64,000 bases of DNA. Origin: Collinsella sp. An307. GTDB taxonomy: Bacteria; Actinomycetota; Coriobacteriia; Coriobacteriales; Coriobacteriaceae. Of this stretch, positions 23,969-30,264 are shown piece by piece. The stretch spans positions 248,001 through 312,000 of the forward strand of contig NZ_NFIP01000001.1 in the NCBI RefSeq assembly GCF_002161805.1, read 5' to 3'. A model generated the notes under the pieces. It was not told where the DNA came from. It searched no databases and saw only the letters and a list, made by a program, of their open reading frames with translations. Numbering within the stretch: position 1 is the stretch's first letter; each line of letters starts with the position of its first letter. A program made the translations under genes and the position numbers.

Positions 23969-24838
23969 ATGCGCAAACTCTTCTCCCGTCAGCTCGTCGA
24001 GGCGCGTCACGAGATGCTCTCCATCTACGAGGTCATCGACCTTACGCTCCACGACGCGGTTCGCTCCTTTGTGACCGATGACAAGAAGCTCGCGAGCAAG
24101 GCCAAAAAGCAGGCGCTCCGCATCGATGCGCGCTGCGCCAACCTCGAGGCGGTCTGCTACAACCTCATCGCCACCCAGGGTCCCGTGGCCTCCGACTTCC
24201 GCCTGCTCCAGACCATCATCTACACCAACTTCTGCCTGCAGCGCATGTGCGACAAGGTGCGCCGCATCGCTCGCGCCGCCCAGCATAAGGTCGTCTCCGG
24301 CATCGAGCTGCCCGCTGAGCTCGTCGAGCTCGTCGAGGCGGAGGCCGGCAGCGTCTACAAGGTGCTCGGCACCTCGGCCTCTGTGCTTGTCACCAACGAC
24401 CTCGCACTGCTGCGCACCCTGAACGCGCAGGAGGAGGACACGCACGGCATCTACGAGGAGTTCTTCCGCGCCTACAACCGCATGGCCGCCATGCAGATCG
24501 ATGACGACCGCTCGCTTGACGACCTCCGCCGCGTCATCATGGTCTCGCGCTACCTCGACCGCTGCGCCCAGTACGCCATCGACGCCGCTGGTCGCATCAC
24601 CTTCCTGCTCACCGGTCAGCGCTGGAGCGCCGCGGACATCGCTGGCATCGACGAGGAGGAGCTCGAGGGCATGCGCGTCCCCTCCGGCGAGGGCGTCATC
24701 CTGCGTCCCGCGGCCGACGCCGCCTGCATCGCGCGCATTCCCGCCTCCGAGCTCACCCAGGCGGTCGTCACGCTCATCGAGAATCCCGAGGACGAGGACG
24801 ATGATGAGGATGAGGACGAGGAGGACGACCTCGCCTAG
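23969..24838 (+). CDS. PhoU-domain protein with acidic C-terminal tail
   Basis: The 289-residue soluble, helix-rich protein looks like a tandem PhoU-type three-helix bundle. The first half (MRKLFSRQLVEARHEMLSI... VASDFRLLQTIIYTNFCLQRM) matches the PhoU pattern, in which the conserved segment after SDFR/LRxL lines the metal site. PhoU proteins regulate phosphate transport and PhoR signalling. The last 19 residues are almost all Asp and Glu, which is not usual for PhoU. There is no pst operon here; the pit/DUF47 pair lies about 5.5 kb downstream. A GGAG SD precedes ATG 23969. The function is inferred from the family. Confidence 0.78.
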   Translation: MRKLFSRQLVEARHEMLSIYEVIDLTLHDAVRSFVTDDKKLASKAKKQALRIDARCANLEAVCYNLIATQGPVASDFRLLQTIIYTNFCLQRMCDKVRRIARAAQHKVVSGIELPAELVELVEAEAGSVYKVLGTSASVLVTNDLALLRTLNAQEEDTHGIYEEFFRAYNRMAAMQIDDDRSLDDLRRVIMVSRYLDRCAQYAIDAAGRITFLLTGQRWSAADIAGIDEEELEGMRVPSGEGVILRPAADAACIARIPASELTQAVVTLIENPEDEDDDEDEDEEDDLA

Positions 24839-25802: not shown

Positions 25803-26519
25803 GTGGGATTCTTAGACGAGATCAAGAGCCGCCTTCCGTTCGGCCAGCAGTTGCCCTTCGGTCAGGATGACTACGCTGCCGACGGCTACGAGGACGACTA
25901 TTACGACGGCGAGGGCTACGACGCCGAATACGGCACGCAGGACGCCTCCTACGGCCAGGGCTATGCCGCTCAGGACACCCCGTCCAACGGCGTTCTCGGC
26001 CAGACGCGCCGCGGTGAGGCCGAGTCGGTAGCGGTCTATACGCGCTCCGGCCAGCTGGTCGGCGATGCGGACCGTCATGCGACCACGTACAACCCGCCTG
26101 CGCGCTCCCATGAGGACTATCGTCCCGGCGCCTATGACACGCCGTCGAGCTATGCCGCGCAGACCCGTGCCCGCGCCGCTGCAACCCCGACTCCCGCCTC
26201 TTCGATGACCGAGAGCCACGCCGCATCGATTCTGAACGCGACGCCCCAGCTCCCGATTTATGAGCTTCGCCCTGAGAGCTATGACGACGTCGAGACGGTG
26301 GTGCGTCGCGTGCGCACCAAGCAGCCGGTGGCGCTCATCTTCGTTGGTGTTCGCACCGAGGTCGCCAAGCGCGTGCTCGACTTTAGCTACGGCTTTGCCT
26401 GCGGTCTTGGCGCCACGGTCCGCGAGGTGGGCGACCGTGTCTTTGTCGTTCTGCCGCAGGGCTGCGAGGTCACTGATTCCGACCTTGCCAAGCTCCGCGC
26501 TGACGGATACCTCAAGTAG
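25803..26519 (+). CDS. sepF: Cell division protein SepF
   Basis: Membrane-associated FtsZ anchor, the substitute for FtsA in many Gram-positives. The 238 residues comprise an N-terminal amphipathic helix (GFLDEIKSRLPFG), a long acidic Tyr/Asp/Gly-rich linker (about 20-150), and a C-terminal SepF domain (RPESYDDVETVVRRVRTKQP, then FSYGFACGLGATVREVGDRVFVVLP shown here in part). GTG 25803 gives the normal N-terminus, with GGGGGAG upstream; an upstream TTG at 25785 would break the helix start. yggT follows in the same frame behind the TAG stop. No ftsA is seen in the window. Confidence 0.92.
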   Translation: MGFLDEIKSRLPFGQQLPFGQDDYAADGYEDDYYDGEGYDAEYGTQDASYGQGYAAQDTPSNGVLGQTRRGEAESVAVYTRSGQLVGDADRHATTYNPPARSHEDYRPGAYDTPSSYAAQTRARAAATPTPASSMTESHAASILNATPQLPIYELRPESYDDVETVVRRVRTKQPVALIFVGVRTEVAKRVLDFSYGFACGLGATVREVGDRVFVVLPQGCEVTDSDLAKLRADGYLK

Positions 26520-26528
26520 CAGGGGCTG

Positions 26529-26798
26529 ATTACCATTTATCAAATCGCACAGCTTGTCAGCACACTCGTAAACTTCTACGAGACGCTCATCCTCGTGTAC
26601 ATCATCCTCATGTGGTTCCCGCTGCGCGAGGGTGGCATCGCCTATGACGTGGCGATGGTGCTCCGCTCCCTCTGCGAGCCGTTCCTGTCGATCTTCCGGC
26701 GCATCATCCCGCCCATGGGCGGCATTGACTTCTCGCCGGTTATTGCAGTTCTTGCGTTGAACGTCATCGCTCGTTTGGTAATAGGTATACTGGTTTAG
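26529..26798 (+). CDS. yggT: YggT family membrane protein, probable non-canonical start
   Basis: YggT proteins are about 90 residues with two membrane segments and sit between sepF and divIVA. Here the family-like sequence begins with TIYQIAQLVSTLVNFYETL right behind the sepF stop, but the first ATG/GTG/TTG in frame is GTG 26595, in the middle of the first hydrophobic segment (YETLILVYIILMWF). The frame is open from 26520. AGGGG at 26521-26525 could serve CTG 26526, ATT 26529 or ATT 26535. I annotate ATT 26529, giving 89 residues. It lies in the same frame as sepF, so TAG readthrough would fuse the two. The second segment is SPVIAVLALNVIARLVIGIL. The gene is clear; the start is not. Confidence 0.75.
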   Translation: MTIYQIAQLVSTLVNFYETLILVYIILMWFPLREGGIAYDVAMVLRSLCEPFLSIFRRIIPPMGGIDFSPVIAVLALNVIARLVIGILV

Positions 26799-26853: not shown

Positions 26854-27498
26854 ATGGCTATCACACCTGCAGACATCCAGGCCCAGACGTTCTCCGAGGC
26901 CAAGCGCGGTTACGATCCCGCTGAGGTCGACGTTTTCCTTGAGCAGCTCGCCTCCGAGGTCGACGCCATGCTCTCCAAGATCGTCGATCTTAAGAACCGC
27001 CTGACCGCTACCGAGCACGAGCTCGCCGACGCTCAGGCTCAACTTGCGGCTCAGCCCGCGGCCGCTCCGGTTGTCGCCGCCGCGCCGCAGCACGATTTCT
27101 CCGCCACCGAGCGCCAGATCTCTGCTGCCCTCATCTCCGCCCAGCAGACCGCTGACACCATCGTTGCCGACGCCCAGCAGAACGCCCAGCGCATCTGCGA
27201 CGAGGCCGACGCCAAGGCGCGTGACGTCATCCGTCAGGCGCTTCAGGAGAAGCAGAACGAGCTCGCCGAGATCGACCGCCTGAAGGCCTCCCGCGAGGAG
27301 TTCAAGAACGAGTACCTGAAGCTCATCCAGCACTTCATGGACGACGCTCAGAACTCCTTCCCGTCCGACCTGCTCTCCTCTGCTCCGGTCGGTTCCTCCG
27401 CGGCTCCTGCTCCGGCGCCCGCTCCCGCGCCTGAGCCCGCCCCGGTTGCCGATCCCTTCGCTCCGATCGACAACTTCGTCGCGGACGACCTCGACTAG
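26854..27498 (+). CDS. divIVA: DivIVA/Wag31-type polar and septal protein
   Basis: Coiled-coil protein that senses membrane curvature and directs polar growth or septum placement. The 214-residue protein starts with the DivIVA N-domain (TPADIQAQTFSEAKRGYDPAEVDVFLEQ shown in part), then two coiled-coil stretches (about 30-65 and 80-165) separated by an Ala/Pro/Gln linker, and an Ala/Pro-rich acidic tail. AAGGAGA precedes ATG 26854. TATACT at 26786-26791 inside the yggT 3' end is a possible -10. A strong terminator follows, so the yggS-to-divIVA unit ends here. Confidence 0.93.
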   Translation: MAITPADIQAQTFSEAKRGYDPAEVDVFLEQLASEVDAMLSKIVDLKNRLTATEHELADAQAQLAAQPAAAPVVAAAPQHDFSATERQISAALISAQQTADTIVADAQQNAQRICDEADAKARDVIRQALQEKQNELAEIDRLKASREEFKNEYLKLIQHFMDDAQNSFPSDLLSSAPVGSSAAPAPAPAPAPEPAPVADPFAPIDNFVADDLD

Positions 27499-29609: not shown

Positions 29610-29640
29610 GTCCCTCTACCAATAGGGTTCGCGTAGATTC

Positions 29641-29670
29641 GGCGCCCGTCGGCTTCGGTCGGCGGGCGCC
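29641..29670. terminator. Stem-loop after pspA
   Basis: GGCGCCCG and CGGGCGCC bracket a further self-complementary GTCGG/TTCG-type core. No T-run follows, so termination would be weak or factor-dependent. It lies 31 bp after pspA and 27 bp before rnpB. Confidence 0.45.
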
Positions 29671-29684
29671 GTGCTATATCGTGC

Positions 29685-29690
29685 TACAAT
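29685..29690 (+). promoter_or_regulatory. -10 element of rnpB
   Basis: TACAAT preceded by TGC gives an extended -10 (TGCTACAAT), seven bases before the expected 5' end of the RNase P RNA. No -35 is visible. Confidence 0.55.
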
Positions 29691-29696
29691 CGTGAG

Positions 29697-30057
29697 CCGC
29701 GAAGCGGGCCAGACGGTCGCGCGCCGGTGCATGCCGGCGTGAGGAAAGTCCGGGCTCCACAGGGCAGAATGCTGGCTAACGGCCAGGCGGGGCGACCCGA
29801 CGGAAAGTGCCGCAGAAAAGAAGACTCCCACCTGCGCGCGAGCGTAAAGGGAAAAGCTGAAACGGTGGTGTAAGAGACCACCAGCGTCGCGGCGACGCGG
29901 CGGCTGGGTAAACCCCATTCGGAGCAAGCGCGAATAGGAGCGCCATGGGCCGGCCCGGTCCGCGCTCGGGTAGCGTGCGAAGAGCCGCACGGTAACGTGC
30001 GTGCCAAGATAAATGACCGTCCGCGACAGAACCCGGCTTATCGGCCCGCTTCGCATC
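29697..30057 (+). ncRNA. rnpB: RNase P RNA, bacterial type A
   Basis: Catalytic RNA that matures tRNA 5' ends. The conserved 5' P4 strand GAGGAAAGTCCGGGC lies at 29741-29755, and the conserved 3' segment ACAGAACCCGGCTTAT at 30026-30041. The terminal helix pairs GCGAAGCGGGCC (29699-29710) with GGCCCGCTTCGC (30043-30054). The internal GGTAAACCCC and AGATAAATGACCG segments are also characteristic. Ends are estimated from the P1 helix. Length of about 360 nt fits type A. Confidence 0.96.
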
Positions 30058-30264
30058 CTCTTTGTATGGCTGATTTCGTCTCCATGAGGTCTTCTCTCGG
30101 TAAGCGCAATGTAAGGGAATCGTAAGCTGCCGTTGCCGTTCACGGAATATCTGCAGCTAGGAGAACCGCTCGGCGCGCTATAGGTCACGTTTGCCCATCT
30201 AAAATGTCAGCTCTGCGTTAGTAGACGGTCAAGAACCGCTAAAATGGTGCAGGTTGTTCCAACG

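Follow-up and report, generated by a model that had tools for sequence, protein, structure and literature searches.

How is translation of yggT (ylmG, sepG) initiated in Collinsella sp. An307? In the window, as the whole 64,000-nucleotide stretch of DNA analyzed here is called, Pfam matches placed yggT between sepF (PF04472) upstream and divIVA (PF05103) downstream, as shown in Table 1. The preliminary description had claimed that the gene lacks ATG, GTG, and TTG from 26520 to 26594, yet encodes the expected YggT N-terminus there. Letter-by-letter inspection of the yggT frame at 26520–26594 confirmed that none of the three codons is present. Behind the sepF TAG (26517–26519), the frame reads CAG GGG CTG ATT ACC ATT TAT CAA ATC GCA CAG CTT GTC AGC ACA CTC GTA AAC TTC TAC GAG ACG CTC ATC CTC GTG(26595), and the stretch between this stop and GTG 26595 codes for most of the first transmembrane helix.

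With ATT 26529 taken as residue 1, AlphaFold2 (20-row alignment) predicted helices at residues 3–29, 37–59, and 69–88 with a mean pLDDT of 85.9, and the Pfam YGGT match (PF02325) begins at residue 12 in the same numbering. A PDB search returned only one relative, 7vcf_H YlmG/Simp3. The AGGGG and the frame shared by sepF and yggT, both pointed out previously, were found in the window as described, and RNA folding of 26470–26570 revealed nothing out of the ordinary (z 0.52). Taken with the comparisons below, the sequence makes it very probable that translation of yggT begins at a non-canonical AUH codon (AUU, AUC, or AUA), in the window AUU 26529 or AUU 26535, to which the Shine-Dalgarno-like AGGGG behind the sepF stop directs the ribosome.

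Table 1. Features of the sepF–yggT–divIVA region, in window positions.
Feature	Position	Strand	Remarks
sepF	25803–26519	+	upstream gene; first codon candidates GTG 25803 or TTG 25785; PF04472, 52 bits against a cut-off of 27; TAG stop at 26517–26519
AGGGG, Shine-Dalgarno-like stretch of yggT	26521–26525	+	read in the window sequence
ATT, first candidate yggT start (codon 1)	26529–26531	+	homologous codon mostly AUH in the family
ATT, second candidate yggT start (codon 3)	26535–26537	+	conserved in the genus; better spacing from AGGGG
yggT (ylmG, sepG)	26529–26798	+	89 residues if the start is 26529; PF02325, 66.2 bits, cut-off 27
GTG, first ordinary start codon in the yggT frame	26595–26597	+	residue 23, inside helix 1; judged not to be the start; not conserved
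divIVA	26854–27498	+	downstream gene; PF05103, 86.4 bits against a cut-off of 28

Two further features of the window were recorded. A PhoU-domain gene (PF01895, 58.4 bits; 23969–24838, + strand) lies inside the division cluster, a few hundred bases ahead of an Ala_racemase_N (yggS-like) gene and sepF. Class A RNase P RNA was located at 29701–30056 on the + strand (Rfam RF00010, 285.3 bits), and the opposite-strand ORF of 190 residues that overlies it (29616–30188) is probably spurious.

yggT start codons among relatives

A yggT match was obtained in 63 of the 65 Coriobacteriaceae genomes searched, and all 63 sepF–yggT junctions were read. A gene was scored as having no ordinary start when ATG, GTG, and TTG were absent from the in-frame stop (or codon −8) to codon 5. 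By this definition, an ordinary start was absent at the yggT N-terminus in 44 of the 63 genomes and present in 19. The codon homologous to 26529 was ATC in 33 genomes, ATT in 8, ATA in 3, GTG in 10, TTG in 3, and another codon in 6 (GTC in G008, CTC in G059, ACC in G040, GGT in G041, TGT in G037, and GGG in G056). ATG was found at this position in none of the 63 family genomes; in G041, ATG occurs two codons past codon 1. A near-cognate AUH codon is therefore kept at codon 1 in 44/63 family genomes. These 44 are not the same set as the 44 without an ordinary start: G028 and G050 combine AUH at codon 1 with an ordinary codon ahead of it, and G008 and G056 have a non-AUH codon 1 yet lack any ordinary start. 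In G008, the GTC at codon 1 is followed by ATT two codons on.

Some of the 19 available ordinary starts may be unused: in G059, the GTG falls inside the Shine-Dalgarno-like stretch, and in G028, the TTG follows it immediately. Half of the genomes without an ordinary start (22/44) form one close clade, and the 44 are therefore not independent; they contain 24 distinct junction sequences. On a tree of SepF plus YggT, at least three steps were required between AUH and GTG/TTG at codon 1; this count omitted the six genomes with another codon there and scored G050 as GTG/TTG, given the GTG upstream of its codon 1. All 65 yggT genes examined from other families of the order (from 65 of 109 genomes with a YGGT match) offered an ordinary start, under a lenient test that accepted any ATG, GTG, or TTG up to 30 codons upstream of the domain. 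Most simply, these distributions suggest that the AUH state is a derived feature of Coriobacteriaceae. The length of the sepF–yggT spacer was divisible by three in 40 of the 44 genomes that lack an ordinary yggT start, compared with 7 of 18 that have one, a comparison that excludes G059.

In this family, AUH starts were seen in infC, which had a match in 62 of the 65 genomes. All 30 of the 62 loci that were read start with ATA, including infC of the window's genome (L089:1480), where ATA stands behind GGAGGT; therefore, Coriobacteriaceae does use AUH starts. A scan for similar genes compared 400 kb of the window's genome with 400 kb of G014, a sample that infC falls outside. Of the 212 ORF pairs kept, half (106) reached 45% identity across 60 residues or more; the remaining 106 were discarded, and the scan may thus have missed short or fast-evolving genes. 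In 6 of the 106 pairs, six or more codons were aligned ahead of the first ordinary start; three of these, yggT among them, had at least 50% identity there. In the two candidates besides yggT, an ordinary start was located, as judged by eye from the alignments, at or near the beginning of the conserved protein, and the gapped upstream alignment was taken for chance. Within the two 400-kb samples, yggT was the sole clean case among the 106 well-conserved gene pairs.

Place of initiation and alternative readings

To locate the beginning of coding constraint, nonsynonymous and synonymous changes were compared in three hand-chosen clades of 4, 7, and 8 genomes with equal spacer length within each, for which the pair counts are non-independent. 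The nonsynonymous/synonymous ratio was 0.114, 0.386, and 0.015 for codons 1–22 and 0.183, 0.265, and 0.059 for codons 23–85 of the same clades. In the spacer, read in the yggT frame, nonsynonymous versus synonymous changes numbered 3 versus 0, 28.5 versus 3.5, and 41 versus 6. As judged from these substitution patterns, protein-level selection starts at the AUH codon and is missing from the spacer. In 44/44 genomes without an ordinary start, at least one of positions −1 to 3 holds an AUH codon accompanied by a Shine-Dalgarno-like stretch, a count to be read against the occurrence of such a stretch at 12.5% of random positions and the up to five codon positions allowed per genome. An AUH codon alone is trivial; the weight lies in coding conservation without another start, combined with the Shine-Dalgarno-like stretch.

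Both candidate starts in the window are AUU. In favor of 26529, GTG or TTG stands at codon 1 in 13 other family genomes, which points to codon 1 as the place of the start, and codon 3 is non-AUH in G062, G063, G064, and G057. In favor of 26535, ATT is kept there in 9/9 genomes of the genus, its spacing from AGGGG is better, and G008 has GTC at codon 1. For 26529, the distance from the AGGGGC register is a short 2 nt. Shine-Dalgarno spacing, taken from 54 strong-match starts among 76 conserved canonical starts, peaks at 4 and at 7–8 nt, which does not discriminate between 26529 and 26535. On balance, we lean toward 26529 as the start and consider 26535 quite possible.

The preliminary description had also offered read-through of the sepF stop, which would produce a membrane-tethered SepF–YggT fusion and leave yggT in no need of a start codon. 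In the window, sepF and yggT share a frame with no further stop between them. A shared frame is also seen in 40/44 genomes that lack an ordinary start (spacers of 9, 12, 15, 21, or 30 bases), above the one third to be expected in the absence of common descent. Part of this excess is explained by common descent. However, the genes are out of frame in 4/44 (G004, G005, G057, and G064), the sepF stop is TAA in 38/44 and TAG in 6/44, and the spacer shows mostly nonsynonymous changes and no protein-level constraint, while the Shine-Dalgarno-like stretch is retained in 44/44. The fusion was therefore not upheld, and we regard read-through as very unlikely.

Even less credible is a YggT shorter than in other bacteria that begins at the internal GTG 26595. 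Although the frame offers no earlier ordinary start codon behind the sepF stop, initiation there would cut the predicted helix 1 and leave out codons 1–22, which are under protein-level selection. This GTG also lacks a good Shine-Dalgarno-like stretch ahead and is not conserved, the first inner ordinary codon being at residue 43 in G001, G003, G008, and G053 and at residue 32 in G052.

The preliminary description had named CTG or ATT as a rare start of the infC type. ATT held, given the 44/63 family genomes without an ordinary start, but CTG 26526 did not. This codon is near-cognate and in frame, and CTG occupies the place in 8/9 genomes of the genus; however, it touches the Shine-Dalgarno-like stretch with zero spacing, and the position reads TCG, CCC, CTC, ATC, or ACC in the majority of the other genomes lacking an ordinary start. 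Its chance of being the start is smaller still than that of the internal GTG. Finally, a sequencing error or a dead gene, which has nothing in its favor besides the missing start, can be practically discounted: the look at relatives that had been proposed earlier, for an ATG or the same gap, excluded an error by finding the same lack in 44/63 genomes with 24 distinct junctions, several of the named records carrying them being cultured isolates, and the whole YggT protein is under purifying selection.

Proposed weak start and its putative role

The absence of an ordinary start, the coding constraint from the AUH codon on, the same lack in 44/63 genomes, and the occurrence of ATG at codon 1 in 0/63 are features of the sequences themselves; from them, we infer actual initiation at the AUH codon. 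In the proposed mechanism, the AGGGG just past the sepF stop would direct initiation at AUU 26529 or AUU 26535, perhaps with help from ribosomes finishing sepF. The initiator tRNA would mispair at the third base of the AUH codon, which is expected to make initiation inefficient and vulnerable to IF3 rejection. The AUH start of yggT would thus be weak and IF3-sensitive, like those of infC and sigR, and would hold the YggT dose low relative to SepF and DivIVA.

YlmG overexpression proved lethal in E. coli and, in Synechococcus and chloroplasts, interfered with both division and nucleoids (PMC2923531). Because excess YlmG is harmful elsewhere, the likeliest purpose of a weak start, by analogy, would be to keep YggT low behind sepF. 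The absence of ATG from codon 1 in 63/63 genomes fits selection against a strong start, short of proof. Several observations stand against the AUH reading: the sepF stop is in frame in 40/44, something that a start codon does not need; the dose argument is drawn from other organisms; and G008 has GTC at codon 1. More tentatively, selection in Coriobacteriaceae may have removed AUG and then all ordinary yggT starts, bringing a division/nucleoid protein under the control of IF3; the YggT dose would then track the initiation-factor level via an infC-like (AUA) weak start.

If the AUH reading is correct, a division-cluster gene has had its ordinary starts give way to AUH in a large part of a gut-bacterial family. 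A gene finder restricted to ATG, GTG, and TTG would cut YggT inside its first helix or miss yggT. The gene would also allow a direct test of IF3-limited dosage in cell division.

Comparison with known systems

A literature search found no published description of a non-canonical start of yggT/ylmG. As far as this search shows, the AUH start is new for yggT, of the same kind as known attenuated starts, and spread over much of Coriobacteriaceae. In E. coli, infC and pcnB both have an AUU start.

Very few genes with conserved non-NUG starts have been characterized, according to a report on Streptomyces (PMC5472188). The start of infC is ATC in Streptomyces (PMC5472188) and AUA in S. aureus (PMC13009471). 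Infc and yggT resemble each other in a conserved AUH codon as the start, putative for yggT, which follows a Shine-Dalgarno sequence in infC and a Shine-Dalgarno-like stretch in yggT. In contrast, infC is self-controlled through IF3, whereas yggT would be a target only, and ATA stands in every family infC locus read, whereas yggT varies among ATC, ATT, and ATA.

In Streptomyces, sigR has a GTC start and is repressed by IF3 (PMC5472188). Both cases show an actinobacterial two-gene arrangement with a clade-wide non-NUG start, putative for yggT, that tends to escape annotation, and GTC also occurs at codon 1 of the window relative G008. They differ in that IF3 repression is experimental for sigR and proposed for yggT, and in that the weak start belongs to the first gene of the sigR pair and, in the yggT case, to the gene that follows sepF.

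AUU and AUA starts of S. aureus yielded approximately 10% of AUG in poor medium, and cvfC1 (AUU) and ccpN (AUA) have such non-canonical starts (PMC13009471). The AUH start of cvfC1, ccpN, and pcnB limits yield and is kept in related species, as would be that of yggT; these are other genes, however, and extended Shine-Dalgarno pairing was shown there, compared with only a core-like stretch for yggT.

Other Gram-positive bacteria also carry ylmG/yggT/sepG flanked by sepF and divIVA (PMC4852450). These loci share the gene family (PF02325) and neighbors with the window, but an ordinary start was available in the 65/65 genes from other families of the order. On the features examined, yggT belongs with the known attenuated starts, with low yield and IF3 control as putative properties suggested by analogy.
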